From positions 1 through 57,405 of the forward strand of contig JACRBC010000023.1 in assembly GCA_016213245.1 (NCBI GenBank): a stretch of DNA of 57,405 bases, read 5' to 3'. This document shows positions 41,948-53,745 of this stretch, piece after piece. The position numbers were made by a program, and so were the translations under genes. How positions within the stretch are numbered: the first letter of the stretch is position 1; every line of letters starts with the position of its first letter. The stretch comes from Candidatus Solibacter usitatus. GTDB taxonomy: Bacteria > Acidobacteriota > Terriglobia > Bryobacterales > Bryobacteraceae. The notes under the pieces are model-generated. The model ran no database searches, was not told the DNA's origin, and was given only the letters and a program-made list of their open reading frames with translations.

Positions 41948-43255
41948 CTACTGCCAGCCGTGGCCGCTCGGGACCAGCCGCTCGATGTGGCAGGCGGCTT
42001 CCACGCATGCATCCGCGCCCTGCATCCGCGCGGCCAGCGCCCGGCACGCGCCGGTTCTGCCGCTTGAGTGCAGCAGCGCCCGCAGCATGCGCGCCGCCTC
42101 ATCCACATGGAAGCCGGGCCGGTTCAGGCGCACCCCTGCCCCGAGGCGCTCCACTCGCCTGGCGTTGTCGAACTGGTCGTCGTTGAACGGCGCCACCAAC
42201 TGGGGGACGCCGGCAGCCAGCGCCAGTCCTGTCGTCCCAATGCCGCCGTGGTGAACCAGCGCCGCCGCTTTACCCAGGACGGCGCTGAGCGGCGCGTAGG
42301 GCAGGTGGAGAACGCCCTGCGGCAGATTCGCCGGAACGCAACCGGCGGCCGGACAAAGCAGCACTCCCCGCACTCCCAGCCTGCGGCAGATCCCCAGGGC
42401 GGTCTGGAAAAACGGTCCGCCGTTGGGATGGAACGATCCGGTCGTGAACACCACCGGCGGGGTTCCGCCCGCCAGGAACGGCTCCAGCTCCGCCGGAGTA
42501 TCGCGCAGCCCGCTCCCGTCGAATAGTGGGAAGCCCACCAGCCGCGTGGCCGACGGCCAGTCCGGCTGCGGCCGGGCAAACCAATCGGGAAACATCCCCA
42601 GCACAAGCTCCGGTGAATGGCTCCAGGCCGACGAGATCCGCCGCGCGGGGCTGAGTCCCAATTCGCGGCGGAACTCGTTCATCTCCGGCGCCAGTAGATG
42701 GTCCGCCCAACCATCAATGGCTTTCCATGCAAGTCTCCGGCACAGGCGCGGCAGGCGGCCTGAACCGCCCGGCACGGGCAGGCCCGGCGCATCGTACTCG
42801 CTGTGAATCGCCGCCGGCTGCAAATGCACGGTAGCCAGCGGAATACCGAGCCGTTCCTGGGCCAGGCGCGCCCCGTAGGCGTTGCCGCGCGCCACCAGCA
42901 CCGTCTGGCCGGCAATGTTGCTTCCCTCAATGTAGCCGTACAGCCAGCGCATGGAGCCGAGCGGGCCCCTGCTCCTGCGCCGCCAGCGGTCCAGTCCCCG
43001 CCGGACCCATCCGCCGGACGAGCGCTCGTGCCCGCCGCCGTGCATCGCCGACGCCAGCCGCCCGGCCGAGCCGAAGCCTTCGAACTCGAGCCCCATCCGC
43101 CGCGCGTCGGACTCGAAATGCGGGTTGGAGATCAGCGTCACGCGGTGGCCGCGCCGGGCGAGCGCCGCTCCGATCGCCGCCAGCGGCAGTACGTCACCCG
43201 GGCCTCCGAAGGAGACCACCATGACGTTCAGGCCTGCCTGCCTGGTGGGATTCAT
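41948..43255 (-). CDS. UDP-glycosyltransferase, MGT/YjiC-like (GT1)
   Basis: A 435-residue GT-B enzyme. The N-terminal nucleotide-free domain starts MVVSFGGPGDVLPLAAIGAALARRGH; the donor domain has VVFTTGSFHPNGGPFF and the GT1 signature VHHGGIGTTGLALAAGVPQL with FNDDQFDNARRVERLG. It transfers a sugar from a UDP- or TDP-donor to a small hydrophobic acceptor. It is the last gene of the leftward operon, 15 bases after the nucleotidyltransferase gene, which suggests tailoring of the locus product. Confidence 0.9.
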   Translation of the reverse strand: MNPTRQAGLNVMVVSFGGPGDVLPLAAIGAALARRGHRVTLISNPHFESDARRMGLEFEGFGSAGRLASAMHGGGHERSSGGWVRRGLDRWRRRSRGPLGSMRWLYGYIEGSNIAGQTVLVARGNAYGARLAQERLGIPLATVHLQPAAIHSEYDAPGLPVPGGSGRLPRLCRRLAWKAIDGWADHLLAPEMNEFRRELGLSPARRISSAWSHSPELVLGMFPDWFARPQPDWPSATRLVGFPLFDGSGLRDTPAELEPFLAGGTPPVVFTTGSFHPNGGPFFQTALGICRRLGVRGVLLCPAAGCVPANLPQGVLHLPYAPLSAVLGKAAALVHHGGIGTTGLALAAGVPQLVAPFNDDQFDNARRVERLGAGVRLNRPGFHVDEAARMLRALLHSSGRTGACRALAARMQGADACVEAACHIERLVPSGHGWQ

Positions 43256-43270
43256 GCGGGTCGCCGGAGC

Positions 43271-44503
43271 TTAGGATGCCACCGCGGCCATCTGCCGGTT
43301 CAACAGATTCCTGAACTCCGCGCCCGCCGCCGCCGTGCGCTGGTAGATCGGACTGAACTCACGCAGGTAGTAGCCGGCCAGCGAAACACGCCTGCGCCCG
43401 ATCGACTCCACGCGCTCCGGAACCGGAACCGGGGGAGTCTCTCCGTTTTGCAGATAGCCGCAACTGTATTCCAGCAGCGCCAGAATCATGGCCGGCGCCG
43501 CGACGTGCGCGTGCATGAATCCCGGATTCCTCGTCGTGTGCGTGTGCCCGTAGAACAGGCAGGCCCTGGCAAATGCCTCCGGCGACGGCCGCTGGAAGCC
43601 CAGCTCGCGCAGTTCGGCGGGCAGGATCCAATCCATGAACGGATTGACGAAATGCACGTATAGATGCAGCAGCTCCGGCGTGGTGAGAAACGAGCACGGC
43701 TCCAGCGCTTTGGGCGCCGGCCCGCCCGTCCTTCCCGGCATGACCAGGAATGCGCGCTCTCTGAATCGCGGGGCCATTTTCCGCCGGAACTGGAACGGCT
43801 CTTCCAAGGCCCGAAGGGGAGGCAGGAGCTGGTCGTGGAGCTGCCTGGCCATTCGAAAACAGTGCCACGGACTCTGCTCGGGGCGGGCTCTGATCTCGCC
43901 CGCCGAGCCGGCCTCCTCACTGAACATCCAGTGCCTTTCCGCCTCCGCGCGCGTGACAAACGGAACCGGCAACAGCCCGCTCGCGACAGCCTTGGCATTC
44001 CACATATCCGCTGCGATCTTGCGCTGGTTGCGCCGGTCGCCGCGGAGCACGGCGGTCGCCAGGCGGCTGTCCTGCCAGAAGGCAAAACGCCGTACGGCAT
44101 CCAGCCTCCTCACCGGCAGGCTGGGGAAATCGACGTGCTTTCCGTACAGCGTCAGCGCGCTGCGGCGGTCGATGGAGCCGAGGTAGGTATCGGCATCCAC
44201 CTCGCTGCGAATCCCCTCCGGATCCTGCACTGCCATGTGCCCGACGGCCGGATTCACGCGGCGCAACTGGCGGACCGTCTGATAGAGGGACAACAGGGCG
44301 GCGCCGTCCGCGGCGCCGCCCTCGGGCTGGCGCACCACCGCCACCAAGTCGATATCGCTGCGCCCGAAGGCGATCTCCCCCGTAGCCACGCTGCGATGCA
44401 CGAACACGCTCTCCACGATCTCCGACGAACCGAGCACCATAGCGGAAAGCCCAGCGGCGCCCCGGTACATCCCGTTCAAGAACAACTTCCCGGCCTGTGT
44501 CAT
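43271..44503 (-). CDS. Nucleotidyltransferase-fold protein of the HprK-associated type
   Basis: A 410-residue protein. A pol-beta-type nucleotidyltransferase motif is visible near the start: GSSEIVES then FGRSDIDLVAVV, with metal-binding D50 and D52. The remainder is a large helical domain rich in Arg and aromatic residues. Such proteins are found beside HprK-related kinases in peptide-maturation and polysaccharide loci. ATG 44503 is 11 bases after the kinase stop and has GGTGAG upstream. The substrate is unknown. Confidence 0.75.
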   Translation of the reverse strand: MTQAGKLFLNGMYRGAAGLSAMVLGSSEIVESVFVHRSVATGEIAFGRSDIDLVAVVRQPEGGAADGAALLSLYQTVRQLRRVNPAVGHMAVQDPEGIRSEVDADTYLGSIDRRSALTLYGKHVDFPSLPVRRLDAVRRFAFWQDSRLATAVLRGDRRNQRKIAADMWNAKAVASGLLPVPFVTRAEAERHWMFSEEAGSAGEIRARPEQSPWHCFRMARQLHDQLLPPLRALEEPFQFRRKMAPRFRERAFLVMPGRTGGPAPKALEPCSFLTTPELLHLYVHFVNPFMDWILPAELRELGFQRPSPEAFARACLFYGHTHTTRNPGFMHAHVAAPAMILALLEYSCGYLQNGETPPVPVPERVESIGRRRVSLAGYYLREFSPIYQRTAAAGAEFRNLLNRQMAAVAS

Positions 44504-44514
44504 CAGCTCACCGC

Positions 44515-45582
44515 TCAAGCCAGGACCTCCCGTGCGAAGCGCACTACGGTTTCCGCGTTCAACTCCGAATCCCGCCCCAGCAACAGGCGCCGCACCACGG
44601 ACCGCCGCAGCAGCTCCAGGCAATTGCGCAGGCGCGAGCCGGCCACGTTCACCTTGCTGAGTAGCTCCCAGGCGCTCCGCTCCAGGATGAACTCCAACCC
44701 GTGAAAGAGGCCGAGTCCGACGACGCTGTTGGAGACCATCGCCCGCAGAGCTTCGGCCAGACCCGCGCTTTCGATCGAACAGCCGCTCGATAGCGTCCGG
44801 CTGCCTAGAAAGACGATCCCTGGCTCGGCCGCGGGGCAAACCCGGTCGGCGAAGTAGTCGTAGTCCACAAGAACCTTGGGACCAAACTCCATGCGCTGTA
44901 TCAGGCGGCGGCGCTCCTCGGGCACCTGGCTGACGGACTCGGCCAACAGGCCCAAGTGCAAGGGGAAGGCATGCACCCGGCCCCGCGCATCCACGTAAGG
45001 GGAATCGTCCGACAGCAACTTCACTTCCCGGTGGCGAAGCAGATGGGCCCCCAGGGTGCTCTTGCCTCCGCCCATGGGCGCCAGTACGAGAATCGCCCGC
45101 CCGTTCAGACTGGCGCCCAGCGCGTGGATGCGATGCATCCCGCGCCGGTCCAGGTACTCGCTGATCTGTGAGAGCAGGAACAGATAGCACGATTCGTACA
45201 GCAGGTTCGGGTCCAGGCTCTGCACGCGGAATCCGCCATGTTCCAGGTCATGAGTTCCCAGGGCCTTGCCGTGGTAGTCGACGTAGGCGCGCTTCCCGTT
45301 GCGGTAGACCACGTTGCGAGGCGTGTAGATGGAAGCGGCGCCGGCGGGCAGGCCCTCGTATCGCGGCGCCTCCTCCGCAACTTCGATTCGCGTCTCCCCT
45401 CCTGCCGGTTCGGAACGGAAGAAGGCGAAATCGCGGCAGATTCCATCAACGGCACGGGGCGACGAACCGGACACCAGGAACCTGTATCCGTAAACCTCAA
45501 ACGCGGTGGCACTCGACTGAGCCACGCTGTCTACCTCCGGGGGCCAACTCAACGCTTCATCATATACCAGGATGCTCCCCAT
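44515..45582 (-). CDS. HprK-related kinase
   Basis: A 355-residue protein. Residues 1-150 form a family-specific N-domain; the kinase core follows with Walker A APMGGGKST (168-176), LLSDDSPYVD (metal-binding DD) and YDYFADRVCPAAEP. It resembles HPr kinase/phosphorylase but lacks its hexameric C-terminal regions; relatives phosphorylate serines of modified peptides or act in polysaccharide loci. ATG 45582 is annotated, but a TTG at 45552 lies 6 bases after a near-perfect TATGAT and may be the true start. It is 9 bases after the membrane protein gene. Confidence 0.8.
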   Translation of the reverse strand: MGSILVYDEALSWPPEVDSVAQSSATAFEVYGYRFLVSGSSPRAVDGICRDFAFFRSEPAGGETRIEVAEEAPRYEGLPAGAASIYTPRNVVYRNGKRAYVDYHGKALGTHDLEHGGFRVQSLDPNLLYESCYLFLLSQISEYLDRRGMHRIHALGASLNGRAILVLAPMGGGKSTLGAHLLRHREVKLLSDDSPYVDARGRVHAFPLHLGLLAESVSQVPEERRRLIQRMEFGPKVLVDYDYFADRVCPAAEPGIVFLGSRTLSSGCSIESAGLAEALRAMVSNSVVGLGLFHGLEFILERSAWELLSKVNVAGSRLRNCLELLRRSVVRRLLLGRDSELNAETVVRFAREVLA

Positions 45583-45591
45583 CCAGGGTAT

Positions 45592-46797
45592 TCAGACCCC
45601 TAATTCATGTAAGAGAGCCCGGGCGATCCCGGCTGCCTGCGGCGCGAGCTGGCCGGCGACCCGCAACGCCACCAGCGCCGCGGGCAGCAACGCCAGCCGG
45701 CCGCCTCCGTCCAACGCTCGCAAAGCCACCAGGACCAGCAACGGCGAAACCACCCGCGGGTAGGCGTAGGGATCGCGGTGGCTGAATAGGAGCGACATCC
45801 ACACTGCCAGCACGGCGAACAGCAGCGCCGCGACCTCTCGCGGCCCTCGTTCGCGGTTCCACACGAATCGCGCGGCCAGCAGTACCGCCAGGGCGATGCC
45901 CAACAGCGACAGGTAGTCCAGCAGCGTCAGAGCACCCGCCAGAGCGTCCGGCAGTTGATACTCCGGCGTACCCAGCCGGAGGCGCATCGGGGCGTGGCTT
46001 TCCATGCCCGCAAGTCCCCGCGCTGAGTGCACGAACGGGCGCACCATGTCACCGTCCACGCGGAACTGCAGGTAACCGAACCACGCCGCCGCCGGCAGGG
46101 CCGCCGTCGCGTACAGCAGCGCCTGGCGCGCCTCCCGGCGCAAGAGCAGGTGCAGGCAGTAGCCCGCCAGCGGCAATACGCCGGTTTCGCGTGTCAGGGT
46201 GGCGCATAGAAGCACGAGGTACAGCTTCCAGGGGGGGCCTTCCTTGGTGTACAGCGCAAAGGCCAAAACCAGCGCCGCCAGGGCGACGTCCACCACCAGG
46301 CGGTCCAGCGAGATGATGACCGCCGGCACCAGCAGGAATCCCAGCCCCCAGGCCGGACTGCGCCCCGCGGAGCACGCGTAGCGGCTCAGCCAGTAGGCTC
46401 CCAGCAGCACCCAAAGCAGGATCACGCCGCGGTAGGCCGCATCGACGAAGCCGTCCCGGCCCCCGGCGAGCAGGTAGGCCGACAAGGGCAGAAGGATGCG
46501 GCGATACCGCAGCCGCGGCAGGTCGACATACTTGTCCAGGCCCCTGGTCCGCAGCGGGTCGTGGGCCATGTAGTGATAGAACTGGCCGTCGTAGCCGCCG
46601 CTGCCGGCGAACACGTGGATCCGCTCCCCTGCCAGCTCGGGAGGCGCCCGGTAGCGCTCCCCCGTGCAGAACAGGGCCGTCCAGTTGCCGCCGTAGTTGG
46701 CGCGCACGGTAGACGCCTGCCAGGCGCAGGCCAGCGCAACCGCCAGCAACCCGGCCGCCAAGGGGCCTTTTCCGATACTCGCGCCTGGAAACCTCAC
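45592..46797 (-). CDS. Polytopic membrane glycosyltransferase-like protein
   Basis: About 401 residues with ten or so membrane segments. A large first periplasmic loop carries GSGGYDGQFYHYMAHDPL, a motif seen in bacterial GT-C/GT87-like proteins, and later loops are short (LTRETGVLPLAGYCL). It probably uses a polyprenyl-phosphate sugar. GTG 46797 is chosen because it follows a minus-strand TATACT (46817-46812) by 14 bases and precedes the first helix. It leads the leftward four-gene operon. Confidence 0.75.
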   Translation of the reverse strand: MRFPGASIGKGPLAAGLLAVALACAWQASTVRANYGGNWTALFCTGERYRAPPELAGERIHVFAGSGGYDGQFYHYMAHDPLRTRGLDKYVDLPRLRYRRILLPLSAYLLAGGRDGFVDAAYRGVILLWVLLGAYWLSRYACSAGRSPAWGLGFLLVPAVIISLDRLVVDVALAALVLAFALYTKEGPPWKLYLVLLCATLTRETGVLPLAGYCLHLLLRREARQALLYATAALPAAAWFGYLQFRVDGDMVRPFVHSARGLAGMESHAPMRLRLGTPEYQLPDALAGALTLLDYLSLLGIALAVLLAARFVWNRERGPREVAALLFAVLAVWMSLLFSHRDPYAYPRVVSPLLVLVALRALDGGGRLALLPAALVALRVAGQLAPQAAGIARALLHELGV

Positions 46798-46811
46798 GGA
46801 ACGCGACGAGC

Positions 46812-46947: not shown

Positions 46948-49170
46948 GTGGGTGCGGAGCCACTGCCCGCGGCGCGCACAGCCTTGGAAATCGTGATCGA
47001 TCCCAGCAGCAGCCTCTCGCCGCAGGAGCGCATCCAGCCGCAGCCCTTCCGTATTGCCATCGCCGCCAACTTCACGGCCGATCCGGTGCGCGCCTCGCTG
47101 GCCTTCTGGGGCCGCGAACTGGACGCGGGCTTTGAGATCGTCTTCGCGCCCTACAACCAGATGGTGCAGACGCTGCTCGACCCGGGCTCCGAGTTCGGGA
47201 GGAACACCCACGGCATCAACGTAGTGCTGGTGCGTTACGAAGAGCTGGCCCAGTTCGATGCACCCGGCGGGAACGCGCTGTCCGCGCTGGAGGCGCACGC
47301 GCAGGAACTGGCCGGAGCCTTGGCGGCGGCGTCCCGTCATGCCGCGCCGCTGATGGTCTGCGTCTGTCCTTCCTCCCCCGGGTTTCTGTCGCAACCAGCC
47401 AACGCTCGCAGCCTGGAGCGCATGCGTTTGTTGCTCGCGGCGCCCGGCGTCCAGTACCTGGACGATGTCGAACTGGCGCGCCTGTATCCCGTCGAGCAGG
47501 TAGAGGACGGCGAGGCCGGCCGCATCGGCCACATCCCCTATTCCGAGACGTTTTTCGCGGCGCTGGGCACGGCCATCGCGCGGCGCGCGCACTCTCTGTT
47601 CATGCCGCCTTACAAAGTGGTGGCGGTGGATTGCGACAACACGCTGTGGGACGGCATCTGCGGGGAAGACGGCCCGTCCGGAGTGACGCTCGACCCGCCC
47701 CGGCGCGCCCTGCACAAGTTTCTGCTGGCCCAGCGCGAAGCCGGCATGCTGCTGGCGCTGGCCAGCAAGAACAACGAGCAGGACGTCCTGGACACCTTCG
47801 CCGCGCACCCGGAGTTTCCGCTGCAGCTCTCCCACTTCGCCGCATGGCGGCTGAACTGGGATTCCAAGGCGGACAGCCTCACTTCGCTGGCCACGGAGTT
47901 CAACATCGGGCTGGACGCATTCGTCTTCATCGACGACAATCCCAAGGAGTGCGCCGAGGTCGCCCAGGGCGCCCCCGAGGCTCTCTCCCTCACATTGCCC
48001 GGCGACGCCGGCGAGATCCCCGCCTTCCTGGCCCACATCTGGGCCTTCGACCACCGTACGCTGACCGCGGAGGACCAGCAGCGTTCCGCTCTGGTGGCGA
48101 ACTCGCTCGAGTTCGGCCGCGCCGCCCGCCAGGCGGCCAGCCTGGCGGAGTTCATCGCCTCGCTCGACCTGCGCGTGGACTTCCAGCCGCTCGATCCCGA
48201 GCGCCTGGGGCGTGTCGCCCAGCTCACCCTGCGGACCAACCAATTCAACACCACCACCATCCGCCGCTCGGAGACCGAGATCCAGGCGCTGCTGGCTACC
48301 GGCAACTACCGCACGTTCACCGCCGAGGTCTCCGACCGCTTCGGCGAGTATGGCCTGGTGGGCGTGCTGATCGTCCGGCAGAGCCCCGCGGACCTGTTTG
48401 TGGACAGCTTCCTGCTCAGTTGCCGCGCCCTGGGCCGCGGGGTCGAACATCGCATGCTCTCGGCCCTGGCCGAAGAGGCGCTGGACAACGGCATCTACAC
48501 GGTCTCGGTAGCGTTCCGGCCATCGGCGCGCAACCTGCCGGCGTACCAGTTTCTGGAGAGCATTCCCTTCGGGCGCAAGCACGAGGGGAGGGACGAGACG
48601 GTGTACTCCTTCCCCGTTTCCGAGCTGCAATCGCTGCGCTGGAAGGCCCCCGCGCCGGAATCCGGCCAGCCGCCCGCGCCGCGAGGCGGGACCGCGCCGT
48701 CGCGCCGTTTCACCGGCTACGCCCGCATTGCGGCCGATTTGCGCTCCCCGGTCCAGGTCCTGCAGACGATTCGCCGCCAGGCCCAGGCGGTCCTGCATGC
48801 GACCCCCGAAGACCATCCCGACGCCCCCTCGTCCGCCATCGAGCGCCAGCTTGCGGTCATCTGGACCGAGCTGCTGGAGCGGCCCGTGACCTCGGCCTCG
48901 GCCAACTTCTTCGACCTCGGCGGCCATTCCCTGCTCGCCGTCCTGCTGCTGATGCGGGTGAAGGAGGCGTTCTCGGTCGAACTCTCCGTCGACGACGTGT
49001 ATTCGGGCACGCTCACGCTCTCCGAGCTGGCCCGCACCATCGAGGCGCGCCAGCTCGGCGCTCTCGACCCCGACGAGTACCAGGCGCTGCTGGCGGAGAT
49101 CGAGGGACTCTCCGACGACGAGGTCCGCGTCCTGCTCGAACAGGAACCGCCACCAGCGAACGGGAGCTGA
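46948..49170 (+). CDS. FkbH-type HAD-IIIC protein fused to a carrier (PCP/ACP) domain
   Basis: About 740 residues. N-terminal SGNH-like domain (about 25-215), a HAD-IIIC phosphatase core with DCDNTLWDGICGEDG (D228) and ASKNNEQDVLDTF, a GNAT-like C-domain typical of FkbH proteins (RTNQFNTTT, SDRFGEYGLVGVL), then a carrier domain (about 630-700) with the phosphopantetheine serine S661 in DLGGHSLLAV. FkbH proteins move a glyceryl unit from 1,3-bisphosphoglycerate onto a carrier protein. Here both parts are on one chain. GTG 46948 is tentative. A six-base gap leads to the GT4 gene. Confidence 0.85.
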   Translation: MGAEPLPAARTALEIVIDPSSSLSPQERIQPQPFRIAIAANFTADPVRASLAFWGRELDAGFEIVFAPYNQMVQTLLDPGSEFGRNTHGINVVLVRYEELAQFDAPGGNALSALEAHAQELAGALAAASRHAAPLMVCVCPSSPGFLSQPANARSLERMRLLLAAPGVQYLDDVELARLYPVEQVEDGEAGRIGHIPYSETFFAALGTAIARRAHSLFMPPYKVVAVDCDNTLWDGICGEDGPSGVTLDPPRRALHKFLLAQREAGMLLALASKNNEQDVLDTFAAHPEFPLQLSHFAAWRLNWDSKADSLTSLATEFNIGLDAFVFIDDNPKECAEVAQGAPEALSLTLPGDAGEIPAFLAHIWAFDHRTLTAEDQQRSALVANSLEFGRAARQAASLAEFIASLDLRVDFQPLDPERLGRVAQLTLRTNQFNTTTIRRSETEIQALLATGNYRTFTAEVSDRFGEYGLVGVLIVRQSPADLFVDSFLLSCRALGRGVEHRMLSALAEEALDNGIYTVSVAFRPSARNLPAYQFLESIPFGRKHEGRDETVYSFPVSELQSLRWKAPAPESGQPPAPRGGTAPSRRFTGYARIAADLRSPVQVLQTIRRQAQAVLHATPEDHPDAPSSAIERQLAVIWTELLERPVTSASANFFDLGGHSLLAVLLLMRVKEAFSVELSVDDVYSGTLTLSELARTIEARQLGALDPDEYQALLAEIEGLSDDEVRVLLEQEPPPANGS

Positions 49171-49176
49171 GCCGCC

Positions 49177-50400
49177 ATGCGCGTCCTGCTGGCCTCCAAC
49201 GCATCTTACGATCCGCCGCGGGGCGGCTCCACGCGATCCAACCTCGCCTGGCTGCGCCACCTGACACGGGCCGGCCACCAGGTTTCGGTCGTCTGCCCCA
49301 CCGTCGAAGGCCGGCCGGATTCGACCACGACGCCTGAGCAGATCACGGTGCACGGCGTGAAGGACCTCTCCTTCCGCGCCGCGGTTCTGGGCCAGTTCAT
49401 CCGCGCGGAACAGCCCGGCTGGGTGCTGGTTTCGAGCGAAGACGTCTCGCACGTGCTGATCCGTGAAGCCGGGCAGTCGGCGCCGTCACGGCTGATCTAC
49501 CTCGCCCATACGCCGCAGTTCATGCCCTTCGGGCCGGAGTCGTGGCACGCCGATGCGGCGGCCTCGGCCATCGTCCGGCGGGCCGCCTCCATCATCACCA
49601 TCGGCAGGCACATGGCCGGCTACGTCGAGACCCATCTGGGCCGCGCCGCCACGGTTATCCATCCGCCCATCTACGGCGGTCCGGCGGTCTTCACGCCGTC
49701 GCGCGAGGGATACGTCCTGATGATCAACCCGTGCACGGTGAAAGGGCTCTCCATCTTCCTGGAACTGGCCCGGCGCTTCCCGCAAACCGCCTTCGCGGCA
49801 TTGACCGGCTGGGGCACCACGGGCACGGACCGCGCGGCCCTCGCCGGGCTGCCCAACGTCCGGCTGCTGGCCAGCGTCGGAGACATCGACGAAGCGCTGG
49901 CGCCCGCCTCGCTGCTGCTGATGCCCTCGCTCTGGTACGAGGGCTTCGGCCTGATCGCCATGGAGGCGATGCTGCGCGGCCTGCCGGTGGCGGCCAGCAA
50001 CTCCGGCGGGCTGCTGGAAGCCAAGCAGGACACCGGCTACGTCATCCCGGTCCGCCCCATCACCAGCTACGAGGCGCACTTCGACGAGACGCACATGCCG
50101 CGGGCGGTGGTTCCGGCGCAGGACATCGAACCCTGGGCCGCGGCGCTCAAGACGCTGCTGGGCAGCGAGGAGGAGTATCGCGCCGAATCGCGGCGTTCCC
50201 TGCTGCGCGCGCAGGCTTTCGTCTCATCACTGGACGCGGCCGACTTCGAGCGGCACCTGCTGGCCCTGCCGCCGGCCCCGGAGCCCATCCCGCGGCCGGC
50301 GGCTAGGGATATGGACCCGGCCCGCAGGGCGCTGCTGCTGGCCCGGCTGAAGCGAGCAGGCCGGCAGAGCCCCGACCGTGAGGGAGGGGGTTCCGCATGA
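49177..50400 (+). CDS. GT4-family glycosyltransferase
   Basis: A 407-residue GT-B enzyme: N-terminal ASNASYDPPRGGSTRSNLAW, and the retaining-GT4 donor site WYEGFGLIAMEAMLRGLPVA with the E-x7-E pair. It shares NPCTVKGLSIFLELARRFP with the next protein, so the two are tandem paralogues. Its tail DPARRALLLARLKRAGRQS resembles linkers used between NRPS modules, then runs into a short stretch encoded by a dispersed repeat (50369-50390) and stops. ATGA overlap with the next gene. Confidence 0.88.
   Translation: MRVLLASNASYDPPRGGSTRSNLAWLRHLTRAGHQVSVVCPTVEGRPDSTTTPEQITVHGVKDLSFRAAVLGQFIRAEQPGWVLVSSEDVSHVLIREAGQSAPSRLIYLAHTPQFMPFGPESWHADAAASAIVRRAASIITIGRHMAGYVETHLGRAATVIHPPIYGGPAVFTPSREGYVLMINPCTVKGLSIFLELARRFPQTAFAALTGWGTTGTDRAALAGLPNVRLLASVGDIDEALAPASLLLMPSLWYEGFGLIAMEAMLRGLPVAASNSGGLLEAKQDTGYVIPVRPITSYEAHFDETHMPRAVVPAQDIEPWAAALKTLLGSEEEYRAESRRSLLRAQAFVSSLDAADFERHLLALPPAPEPIPRPAARDMDPARRALLLARLKRAGRQSPDREGGGSA
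50369..50390 (-). repeat. Inverted copy of the CTCCCTCACGGTCG repeat inside a gene end
   Basis: The plus strand reads GACCGTGAGGGAGGGGG, the reverse complement of the core of the 16375-16450 repeats with one change at the end. It encodes the last residues (DREGG) of the GT4 protein. Confidence 0.65.
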
Positions 50401-52433
50401 GAATCCTGCTGGCGCACAACTCCACCTACTTCCCCTCGGCCGGCGGCGGCGACAAGTCCAACCGCCTGCTGATGGAGGCCCTGGCGGCCCGCGGCCATGC
50501 GGTGCGCGTGGTGACGCGCGTGGAGCAGTTCGGCCCGGAGCACCACGAGAGACTGCTGGCCCAACTGGGCGAGCGCCGCGTGGAGGCCCTCTGCGCCTCC
50601 GGCTCCGGCATCACCTACACACTGAACGGCGTCAGCGTGCGGGTCCTGTCGCTGAACCCCAACCTGCGGGCGTTCTTCCAGGCGCAGATCGACGAATTCG
50701 ACCCCGACCTGATCGTCACCTCCACGGACGACCCGGGCCAGATCCTGTTCGACATCGCCACGCGCACCCCGCGGGCCCGCACGGTCTACCTGGTGCGGGC
50801 GACCATCGCGGTGCCGTTCGGCCCGGACAGCTCCATGGTCTCGTCGGCCAAGACCGAGATGCTGAAGCGCGCCGACGGCGTGGTGGGCGTCTCCCACTAT
50901 GTGGCCGGCTACGTCCGGGAGTGGAGCGGCATCGACGCCATCCACGTGCCCATCTCCCTGCTGGAGCCCGGCGCCAGCTATCCGCTGCTGGGCGCCTTCG
51001 ACAACCCGTATGTCGCGATGGTCAATCCCTGCGCGGTGAAGGGCATCGACATCTTCCTGGAGCTGGCGCGGCGGCTGCCGGAGCTGCGCTTCGCCGCCAT
51101 CCCCACCTGGGGAACCCAGCCGGCGGAGATCGAGGCGATGCGGCGCCTGTCCAACGTCACCCTGCTGCCGCAGATGGACGACATCGACGGCCTGCTGAGG
51201 GTGACCCGCGTCATGCTGGTGCCCTCGGTGTGGGCCGAGGCGCGCTCGCGCATCGTGCTGGAGGCGATGTCGCGCGGCATCCCGGTGATGGCCTCCGACG
51301 TGGGCGGGCTGCACGAGGCCAAGCTGGGGGTTCCCTACCTGATCCGCGTCAACCCCATCGTCAGCTACAAGCCCGCGGTCGACTCATCGATGGTCCCCAT
51401 CGCCGAAGTGCCGCCGCAGGACGTCGAGCCCTGGCTGCGCGTTCTGGCGCGCCTCACCTCGGACCGGCCGCACTGGCAGGAGTTGGCCGCCGCATCCCGC
51501 GGCGCGGCCCTGCAATACGCCGCCAACCTCAATGTCCTGCCCTTTGAGTCGCTGCTGCTGGAGCTGTTGAGAAAGCCCAAGAAGCAGCCGCCGGCGAGCT
51601 CTGCGAAGCCCGCGCTGAGCGAAGACCGGCGGCGCCTGCTCACGCTGCGGTTGAAGCAGCACGCGGCCTCCACGCGGCCCGACGCCACGCTCTGGTTCCC
51701 CGGTATCGAATCGGCTCCGGCGGGCAAGCCGCGGCTCTTCTGCTTCCCCTGGGCGGGCGGCGGGGCGTTGCCGTACCGGGCCTGGAAAGAGCCGCTGGCG
51801 TCCACGGTCTGCGTCGTTCCGGTCCGCTTGCCGGGCCGGGAGACGCGCGCGGCCGAACCCGCCATGGAGCGGATGGAGCCGCTGGTGGAGAGGCTGCTGG
51901 CCGAGATCCGCCCCTTTCTCGACGTGCCGTTCTCGTTCTTCGGCCACTCGATGGGCGCCGGCATCGCCTTCGAGCTGACGCGCGCCCTGCGGCGGGCCGG
52001 GCTTCCCCTGCCCGCTTCACTGCACGTCTCCGGCGCCCGCGCGCCGCAGTTTCGCCTGCACCATCAGCCACCGCCGGAGCCGGCGCTGCGGGACTTCATC
52101 GAGGAGTTGCGGCGCCTGGAGGGCTTTCCACCCTCGGTGCTGAACAACCCGGAGCTTCTGAAGCTGGCGCTGCCTTCGCTGCTGTCCGATGCCCGCCTCT
52201 ACCGCTACTACGCCTACCAGCCGGGCGAACCGCTGCCGCTACCGCTGTTTGCGTACGGCGGGGAGGCGGACCCGAACGTCACCGCCGGCCACCTGAACGC
52301 CTGGGGCGAACAGACGGCCACCTATTTTCGCCGCGCCGAATTCCGGGGCGGGCATTTCTACCTGGAGCCCTCGCAGGCCACGCTGCTGGCCACCCTGCGC
52401 GCCGACCTCACGCCGGAGTCACGGTCCCGCTGA
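50397..52433 (+). CDS. GT4 glycosyltransferase fused to a type II thioesterase
   Basis: A 678-residue two-domain protein. Residues 1 to about 400 form a GT4 enzyme (HNSTYFPSAGGGDKSNRLLM; IVLEAMSRGIPVMASDVGGL). A linker with LSEDRRRLLTLRLKQHA leads to an alpha/beta-hydrolase thioesterase (about 440-675): LFCFPWAGGGALPYRAWKE, GHSMG with S518, D625 and H653 (GGHFYLEP). Type II thioesterases hydrolyse or transfer acyl groups from carrier domains. This fusion ties glycosyl transfer to acyl release from the upstream carrier protein. The 3' end overlaps the convergent MFS gene by 26 bases. Confidence 0.88.
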   Translation: MRILLAHNSTYFPSAGGGDKSNRLLMEALAARGHAVRVVTRVEQFGPEHHERLLAQLGERRVEALCASGSGITYTLNGVSVRVLSLNPNLRAFFQAQIDEFDPDLIVTSTDDPGQILFDIATRTPRARTVYLVRATIAVPFGPDSSMVSSAKTEMLKRADGVVGVSHYVAGYVREWSGIDAIHVPISLLEPGASYPLLGAFDNPYVAMVNPCAVKGIDIFLELARRLPELRFAAIPTWGTQPAEIEAMRRLSNVTLLPQMDDIDGLLRVTRVMLVPSVWAEARSRIVLEAMSRGIPVMASDVGGLHEAKLGVPYLIRVNPIVSYKPAVDSSMVPIAEVPPQDVEPWLRVLARLTSDRPHWQELAAASRGAALQYAANLNVLPFESLLLELLRKPKKQPPASSAKPALSEDRRRLLTLRLKQHAASTRPDATLWFPGIESAPAGKPRLFCFPWAGGGALPYRAWKEPLASTVCVVPVRLPGRETRAAEPAMERMEPLVERLLAEIRPFLDVPFSFFGHSMGAGIAFELTRALRRAGLPLPASLHVSGARAPQFRLHHQPPPEPALRDFIEELRRLEGFPPSVLNNPELLKLALPSLLSDARLYRYYAYQPGEPLPLPLFAYGGEADPNVTAGHLNAWGEQTATYFRRAEFRGGHFYLEPSQATLLATLRADLTPESRSR

Positions 52434-53745
52434 TCTCCCGTTCGGGCTCGCGCGTCTCCCGCTCCGGCTCGGGGAGCTTCCCGGCCCTGTTGGCCCAGCC
52501 CCAGAACACGGCCGTGGAGGCGCTCAACACGCCGGCCACGACACCGATTTCCCGGACGGAAAAGAGCGTGGACGCCGCCCCGGCAGCGCCCATCGACAGC
52601 AACATCACGGCGTTGGACATGGTCTCGACGGTGGTGAAGACACGCCCGCGCAGGCCGTCGGGCACGTGCGCCAGCAGCATGCCGCGGTTGAGCACGGAGT
52701 TGAGCCCCATGGCCACCCTGGACAGGGCGATGAAGACCATGGCGGCATAGATGGAGCCCATGACGCTGAAGACGACATAGCACAGCCCGTGCAGGAAGAA
52801 GGCCACGGTCACCGTGCGCTTGTATCGTTCAAAGCCCATGCCGCGGCCGAGGCGATGGCCGAGGACGCCGCCGAGCACGAGTCCGATGCCGGCGGAGCTC
52901 CAGATGAGGCCGATGCCGGCCGGGCCGCGGGCGAACACCACCTCGCCGAAGAGGGTGAAGAGCACCTGCGCCGCGCCGCCGCCCGTGCTCCAGCCCACGC
53001 CCAACAGCGCGATGCCCAGGATGAGCGGGCGCGCCGCCATGTAGCGGAGCCCCCCGCGGAACTCCTCCAAGCTGGCGCCGCGGCGGCGGGCGGCCCCGCC
53101 TCGCTCCGGCCTGAAGTCTCCCCTCATGCTCCAGATGGCCGCGGCGCTGAAGGCGAAGCTGGCCGCGTTGGCCACGAAAGCCCACTTGTAGCCGAACTGG
53201 GCGGTGCTCAGGCCTCCCAGCATGGTGCCGATCGAGAGCGTCAGCCACGACGTGGTCTGCGTCAAGGCGTTAGCCGTGTGGAGCTCGTCCTGGCTGGCGA
53301 TGCGCGGCAGGATGGCGCTACGGCCGCTATTGAAGAAGGGCGATGCGAACATCAGCAGGCCGCTCAAGGCGTAGAGCAGCCATGTCTCCCGGTAGGTCAG
53401 CAACAGGATGTGGGCCAGCGCCACCACGGCCCGCAGCACGTCGGAGGCGATCATCACCTTGCGCCGGTCCATGCGGTCCAGCACCACGCCGGCGACCGGC
53501 CCGGCGACAATCGCCGGGAGCACGCGCGCAATCATCACCGCCCCCACCGCGGCGCCGCTGCCGGTGAGGTGCAGAGCCAGGCTGAGCACGGCGATGGAGT
53601 TGAAGTGGTCGCCCACCTCGCTCACCGTCTGGCCGAGCCAGCAGGCGCGGTAGTTCCGGTTGCGCCTGAGGATCTGCGCGAATCCGCTCACCACTTCATT
53701 AGAACTTGAACTTGAACGGGGCAGCGGGCGATGTTCCGGTCCCAT
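52408..53745 (-). CDS. MFS exporter, EntS/MFS_3-like
   Basis: A 445-residue protein with twelve predicted membrane segments. LGQTVSEVGDHFNSIAVLSLAL and GVVLDRMDRRKVMIASDVLRA (loop 2-3) match the MFS_3 family of siderophore and drug exporters. GGGAG 8 bases before the ATG is a clear RBS and TATAGT (53779-53774) a good -10. Convergent overlap with the thioesterase gene and the family suggest it exports the locus product. Confidence 0.9.
   Translation of the reverse strand: MGPEHRPLPRSSSSSNEVVSGFAQILRRNRNYRACWLGQTVSEVGDHFNSIAVLSLALHLTGSGAAVGAVMIARVLPAIVAGPVAGVVLDRMDRRKVMIASDVLRAVVALAHILLLTYRETWLLYALSGLLMFASPFFNSGRSAILPRIASQDELHTANALTQTTSWLTLSIGTMLGGLSTAQFGYKWAFVANAASFAFSAAAIWSMRGDFRPERGGAARRRGASLEEFRGGLRYMAARPLILGIALLGVGWSTGGGAAQVLFTLFGEVVFARGPAGIGLIWSSAGIGLVLGGVLGHRLGRGMGFERYKRTVTVAFFLHGLCYVVFSVMGSIYAAMVFIALSRVAMGLNSVLNRGMLLAHVPDGLRGRVFTTVETMSNAVMLLSMGAAGAASTLFSVREIGVVAGVLSASTAVFWGWANRAGKLPEPERETREPEREISGTVTPA

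Follow-up and report, generated by a model that had tools for sequence, protein, structure and literature searches.

A conserved FkbH-carrier, glycosyltransferase and thioesterase cassette in one family of Acidobacteriota: a candidate carrier-templated glycoside line

Contig JACRBC010000023.1 of Candidatus Solibacter usitatus carries, at positions 46948-53745, a compact group of four genes coding for an FkbH-type protein fused to a peptidyl carrier protein (PCP) domain, a family 4 glycosyltransferase (GT4-1), a second GT4 (GT4-2) fused to a thioesterase (TE) and a major facilitator superfamily (MFS) transporter. The stretch of 57,405 nucleotides that was analysed, hereafter called the window, is the entire contig (C132) of a draft genome with an estimated completeness of 78.6%. 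The first three genes are a conserved unit with the order FkbH-PCP, GT4, GT4-TE in 23 of 23 loci that have an FkbH gene, the window included, and this unit is retained without marker matches for nonribosomal peptide synthetases (NRPS) or polyketide synthases (PKS) in some genomes. We favour, with a confidence slightly short of an even chance, a self-contained line in which a glycoside would be built on the carrier protein. No description of the three-gene cassette was found in the literature searched.

Results

All four genes lie where a preliminary description of the window had placed them, and the tight clustering that it had remarked on is evident from the spacing. The FkbH-PCP gene (46948-49170, forward strand) is separated by 6 bp from the GT4-1 gene (49177-50400, forward strand), which overlaps the GT4-TE gene (50397-52433, forward strand) by 4 bp. 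The MFS gene (52408-53745, reverse strand) is convergent with the thioesterase gene and overlaps it by 26 bp. Assignment was based on TIGR01686 and PP-binding matches and motifs for FkbH-PCP, on a Glyco_trans_1_4 match (53 bits), an E-x7-E motif and a C-terminal helix for GT4-1, on matches to GT4 models and to Thioesterase (PF00975, 138 bits) for GT4-TE, and on an MFS_1 match (104 bits) for the transporter, whose alternative start at 53694 (428 aa) agrees with the length called in most relatives. The window has 45 genes called by script plus one membrane protein that the script had missed, and 27 of its proteins were included in Pfam and/or NCBIfam scans. Some 3.7 kb lie between the cassette and the end of the contig; a contig-edge artefact is ruled out by relatives that carry the same cassette on long contigs. 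Because the gene order is identical in all 23 loci, the cassette is neither a chance arrangement nor an assembly accident.

Of 37 genomes from the family (Bryobacterales-type Acidobacteriota), 25, the window's own included, have a match that covers most of the GT4-TE protein. In two relatives, GT4-TE is 93% and 77% identical to the window protein. Twenty-four genomes from outside the family gave partial matches at most, and no full-length GT4-TE, in the same search. A further family genome (G024) shows just the TE part, which lies at the edge of a contig; setting it aside leaves 25 family genomes with GT4-TE and 11 without, and an FkbH match is present in 25/25 of the former versus 0/11 of the latter. 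A sample of 396 genomes from the phylum, scored for the best two candidates per genome so that distant copies may be missed, gave no match spanning GT4 and TE outside the own genome at E 1e-40, and contained two further family members without a GT4-TE match. The neighbourhood analysis suggested in the preliminary description was made on 26 stretches from the family (L032-L057) plus the window; 23 of these loci have the FkbH-PCP gene, followed in each case by those for GT4 and GT4-TE. Variations are few: the two GT4s and the TE are merged into one protein of 999-1064 aa in five of the 23 loci, one extra gene lies between the GT4s in L048, and the cassette is divided over two contigs (L055, L133) in G029.

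With 289 bits against TIGR01686 (cut-off 146.65), the FkbH-PCP protein is a member of the FkbH family and the sole FkbH match in its genome. An N-terminal region precedes a HAD-IIIC/FkbH domain (residues 223-543 approximately) and a PCP domain (approx. 635-699; PP-binding match of 48.3 bits over residues 635-699), followed by a conserved IEGLSDDEV tail. In sequence, the HAD part comes closest to the solved structure BF1531 (3slr), and the PCP to structures of NRPS carrier domains. The FkbH family motifs DCDxT, RTNQFN and SCRxLGRG recur across the cassette loci (DCDxTLW and SCRx[LM]GRGxE in 23/23, RTNQFN in 18/23), and the narrow pattern IDDN was found in 7/23. The preliminary description had also named a HAD active site unable to load 1,3-bisphosphoglycerate as evidence against its proposal, a point on which the sequence speaks at the level of these motifs. 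The carrier serine lies in the motif FF[DE][LM]GGHSL in 23/23 and a tail of the LSDEEV type follows in 22/23; judged by these motifs, the carrier looks live. The cassette proteins form one clade (support 93/95) in an FkbH tree, in which the row G407_Red, translated in a wrong frame, is to be disregarded and the branching outside the cassette clade is unresolved. A match to the phosphopantetheinyl transferase (PPTase) superfamily, in some cases merely of AcpS size, occurs in 24/25 cassette genomes. An Sfp-type PPTase gene lies immediately after the TE gene in G027, G029 and G024, and a possible N-terminal PPTase remnant, below cut-off, in G035. As passages in PMC8949500 state, FkbH domains load glyceryl units for PKS and NRPS lines, and the cassette FkbH would by analogy load a glyceryl unit as well.

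The two glycosyltransferases share features that recall carrier-protein lines. GT4-1 contains the E-x7-E motif EGFGLIAME and, near its C-terminus, an NRPS-style helix, DPARRALLLARL; GT4-2, with the motif EARSRIVLE, is joined to the thioesterase via another such helix, LSEDRRRLLTLRL. In keeping with their assignment to GT4, E-x7-E was found in all 20 separate GT4 proteins (19 are GT4-1, and L056 is a stray of the GT4-2 type), in the GT4-1 half of the five fused proteins and in 25/25 GT4-2 domains. A helix of the LSPEKRALLLxRL kind near the C-terminus of the separate GT4s matched a strict pattern in 15 and a loose pattern in all 20, and the linker between GT4-2 and TE has it in 22/25 by pattern and in the remaining three by eye. 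Apart from L056, GT4-1 and GT4-2 form separate clades in midpoint-rooted trees. The thioesterase is of type II, with the motifs GHSMG and GGHFY in the window; GHSMG is present in 24/25 copies (GHSLG in one) and the His region G[GK]HF[YF] in 24/25, being missing in L053. Its closest solved structure by sequence is RifR (3fla, E 2.7e-44), a type II editing hydrolase.

Members of this GT4 subfamily also occur elsewhere, in one case fused to an NRPS. A genome from another Acidobacteriota family (G111, L075:8170-17061) codes for a glycosyltransferase-headed NRPS with the domain order GT4-C-A-PCP-C-A-PCP-TE (C, condensation; A, adenylation). Its GT4 groups with GT4-1 with a support of 99/96 in one tree and 83/84 in another, the latter being a GT4 tree in which a GT1-like protein from Streptomyces forms a long, misplaced branch. 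The same helix lies between GT4 and the first C domain in G111. In G172 it is located close to the beginning of an NRPS, and another NRPS protein of that cluster ends in the matching tail motif. Among 72,556 plasmid records, only three matched GT4-1 at E 1e-25, two of them with an FkbH-PCP match about 1 kb away. In the one region viewed, on plasmid NZ_CP107920.1 of Streptomyces sp. NBC_00441, genes for an acyl carrier protein (ACP), a GT1-like glycosyltransferase, a subfamily GT4, a TE and FkbH-PCP stand together, so FkbH-PCP and this GT4 subfamily are associated in a second phylum too. Identity to the window proteins is 38% for the GT4 and 38% over 672 aa for FkbH-PCP. The preliminary description had the thioesterase passing the carrier-bound acid to a sugar. 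This step finds no support here; the NRPS-type helices, the fusion to the TE and the NRPS-fused homologue appear to point rather to GT4s that act on the carrier-bound acid. The LSDEEV-type tail of the PCP may serve to dock the carrier on the helices of the GT4 and of the TE linker.

Whole-genome searches for AMP-binding (PF00501), Condensation (PF00668) and a type I PKS marker (PF16197) gave no match on the window contig, in agreement with the earlier impression that no synthase stands beside the carrier locus; A, C or ketosynthase (KS) domains, the hallmark of an NRPS or PKS line, are missing from the cluster by these searches. PF00668 is missing from 14/25 cassette genomes, and both PF00668 and PF16197 from 11/25. 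Seven of these 11 are at least 90% complete, including G006 (100% complete, two contigs), and the other four, at 80-88%, could hide a synthase. A conserved NRPS or PKS just outside the cassette in relatives, which the preliminary description had named as evidence against its proposal, was not found by these counts. A candidate for a hidden synthase in the nearest relative G002, a 2210-aa open reading frame (ORF) upstream of the cassette, was rejected, as by eye it codes for an Ig-like repeat protein and not for an NRPS; this gene (L033:4886-11518) lies directly before the cassette in G002 and is not in the window. The window's own genome has a two-protein NRPS and a PPTase gene on another contig, C107 (L062), and paired C domains also occur in G002 (C136) and G004 (C263).

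These data bear on the idea that an NRPS or PKS encoded at another site in the genome receives its glyceryl or glycosyl-glyceryl units in trans from the cassette, which we consider very improbable. Such a supply would match the FkbH role described in parts of PMC8949500, the NRPS on C107, the condensation domains elsewhere in 11/25 cassette genomes, the window's own included, and the Streptomyces set in its enediyne region with a PKS. It is countered by the 11 marker-free cassette genomes and by the cassette having a thioesterase of its own.

Besides the cassette and the MFS gene, no neighbour cluster was found in more than seven of the 23 loci (clustered and read by eye; some contigs end nearby), so neither a sugar-nucleotide nor a glycan-export gene is a fixed companion, and by eye the remaining neighbours look unrelated. 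A shared flanking pathway was ruled out, as the neighbours recurring in up to seven loci, labelled by eye as oxidoreductase and ThuA/DUF1080-like, are not family-wide. Upstream of the cassette in the window, a divergent group on the reverse strand (41951-46800) begins the list of neighbours with a GT1/EryCIII-like glycosyltransferase gene. The group further codes for three proteins whose genes cluster with those of G002 and of no other genome: one that matched no family, one that weakly matched an HprK-related kinase, and a membrane protein that fell just short of the cut-off for the AZOBR_p60025 family.

Elsewhere, single FkbH-PCP-TE proteins of 992-1003 aa were found in surface-glycan settings, namely nonulosonic-acid-type clusters of G358 (L128; beside NeuB, UDP-GlcNAc 2-epimerase and a cytidylyltransferase) and G302 (L129; beside NeuB and an epimerase), and an exosortase/polysaccharide region of Aquisphaera. 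In G302 (L129:6456-12253), the FkbH-PCP-TE gene adjoins one for A-PCP-TE within the NeuB/epimerase cluster, an arrangement that would suit delivery of two acyl groups to a nonulosonic-type glycan. In G407 (L131:6565-9879), an FkbH-like protein with a PCP is followed by a Male-sterility-type (NAD_binding_4) reductase domain, perhaps for reductive release of an aldehyde.

The product of the cassette GT4s might be a free glycoside, a glycolipid or a surface glycan, with the TE moving glyceryl from the carrier to a hydroxyl or amine of that product, a possibility we rate as unlikely though worth weighing. The proteins of G358, G302 and Aquisphaera speak for it, as does a gene before the cassette in L045 that resembles GlmM by eye. 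In the opposite direction, the structure nearest to the TE in sequence is an editing hydrolase, the GT4s carry helices of carrier lines and have an NRPS-fused homologue, and no sugar-nucleotide, flippase, polymerase or ABC export gene is conserved with the cassette. For the glyceryl-decorated glycoside or surface glycan proposed in the preliminary description, this means that glyceryl decoration of a glycan stays plausible because FkbH-PCP-TE proteins occur in surface-glycan clusters elsewhere, whereas a surface glycan as the product is not supported for want of a fixed glycan companion gene.

A different role follows from the transporter and the type of thioesterase. The MFS protein scores below the cut-offs of the 2A0121 and EntS models (EntS, 107 bits vs a cut-off of 324), and this weak EntS similarity, the presence of the MFS gene in 13/23 loci and the editing function of RifR-type thioesterases would suit a siderophore-like glyceryl small molecule exported by an EntS-like MFS, with GT4s acting on a lipid or unrelated acceptor and a TE that only edits misloaded carrier. 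We regard this as improbable. It does not account for the TE being fused to a GT4 in all copies and to the pair of GT4s in five of them, and the recurrent neighbours of the cassette include no gene for condensation or amide formation.

Discussion

In the carrier-templated line that we favour, FkbH would take a glyceryl unit from 1,3-bisphosphoglycerate, dephosphorylate it and load it onto its own PCP. The two GT4s would then dock on the PCP and successively add sugars to a hydroxyl of the bound glycerate, and the TE fused to the second GT4 would free the (di)glycosyl-glycerate, either hydrolysing it off or handing it to an acceptor, the released product being exported by the MFS protein. The domains, motifs, gene order, conservation and presence without NRPS/PKS marker matches are observed; from these and the analogies drawn above we infer the substrate, the docking, glycosylation on the carrier, the number and kind of sugars, the mode of release and the export. 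Addition of sugars on the carrier is favoured because of the NRPS-fused GT4 of G111, the Streptomyces plasmid set and the MitB precedent discussed below. In its most explicit form, which we put forward as possible rather than probable, the cassette would be a minimal template-directed glycoside synthase: two GT4s building a disaccharide on carrier-held glycerate and a fused TE freeing it, an NRPS-like line with glycosyltransferases in the place of condensation domains, kept through one Acidobacteriota family.

Several observations weigh against this reading. Within the cassette, no sugar-nucleotide gene points to the sugar donor, and in the fused GT4-GT4-TE proteins the linker that joins one GT4 to the other shows no such helix. 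The MFS gene is present in only 13 of the 23 loci, after the TE gene in 12 and beyond FkbH in one (L047). The correlation between FkbH and GT4-TE similarity (r 0.91 over 23 loci) may merely reflect shared ancestry, the cassette contig of G022 stops before FkbH, with FkbH matches on other contigs, and G348, a family genome present in the phylum sample only, gave a match to FkbH but none to GT4-TE. Association with a PPTase is weak, at least two matches being found in 16/25 cassette genomes vs 3/11 other family genomes (p 0.047), and the PPTase search gave no match in G013 (84% complete) and only an AcpS-sized one in G019 (95% complete). For the third plasmid match, a subfamily GT4 of Niveispirillum, the list of neighbouring ORFs contains no FkbH. 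The Streptomyces set is part of an enediyne region that also includes a lone C domain and, at a distance of some 30 kb, a PKS, so there FkbH and the subfamily GT4 may serve a larger pathway. Its TE and MFS proteins gave no BLAST match to those of the window at 1e-3, its second glycosyltransferase is GT1-like and its GT4 is, by eye, without the helix.

If the proposal holds, the cassette would be a carrier-protein line that yields a glycoside instead of a peptide or polyketide and that, at three proteins, is small enough for reconstitution in vitro. It would explain what a gene set conserved in an Acidobacteriota family does, bear on the origin of NRPS-fused GT4 domains and make it possible to study, outside mitomycin, how sugars are added to carrier-bound acids.

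Comparison with known systems

The FkbH glyceryl transferase/phosphatase units of PKS and NRPS lines (TIGR01686) share with the cassette an FkbH and a carrier domain with the signature motifs kept. The cassette differs in having no KS, C or A domain and two GT4s plus a TE after FkbH. The FkbH-PCP-TE proteins of G358, G302 and Aquisphaera likewise combine FkbH, carrier and TE, but their TE is fused to FkbH-PCP and they are set amid nonulosonic-acid or exopolysaccharide genes, whereas the cassette TE is fused to a GT4. Together with these clusters, the flagellin glycosylation locus of Campylobacter, which in the excerpted account of PMC7099621 contains an fkbH-domain gene, provides a precedent for FkbH in glycan loci. 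Campylobacter pseudaminic acid carries di-O-methyl-glyceric acid, according to a portion of PMC3068675. The locus includes cj1302, which in our view may make this unit.

The Streptomyces plasmid NZ_CP107920.1 (NZ_CP108122.1 being a search match only) has FkbH-PCP, a subfamily GT4, a TE and an MFS protein in common with the cassette, and an ACP in addition. There the genes are separate, one glycosyltransferase is GT1/EryCIII-like, and there are sugar-nucleotide genes in the region, along with a lone C domain and a PKS. That this enediyne-type region (L135, L139) combines FkbH-PCP, an ACP and a GT4 with a lone condensation enzyme and genes for sugar nucleotides suggests a glyceryl or glycosyl-glyceryl side unit.

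The closest counterpart in chemistry is the MitE/MmcB/MitB system of mitomycin, in which, as far as the partial text of PMC8621148 goes, MitB adds N-acetylglucosamine to 3-amino-5-hydroxybenzoic acid bound to the ACP MmcB. In mitomycin the acid is aromatic and is loaded by a CoA ligase, MitE, while in the cassette an FkbH would load glyceryl, and two GT4s and a fused TE follow. MitB is likened to the cassette GT4s by proposed chemistry, not by sequence: in mitomycin a carrier-loaded acid receives its sugar from a glycosyltransferase, the very step that we propose for the cassette.

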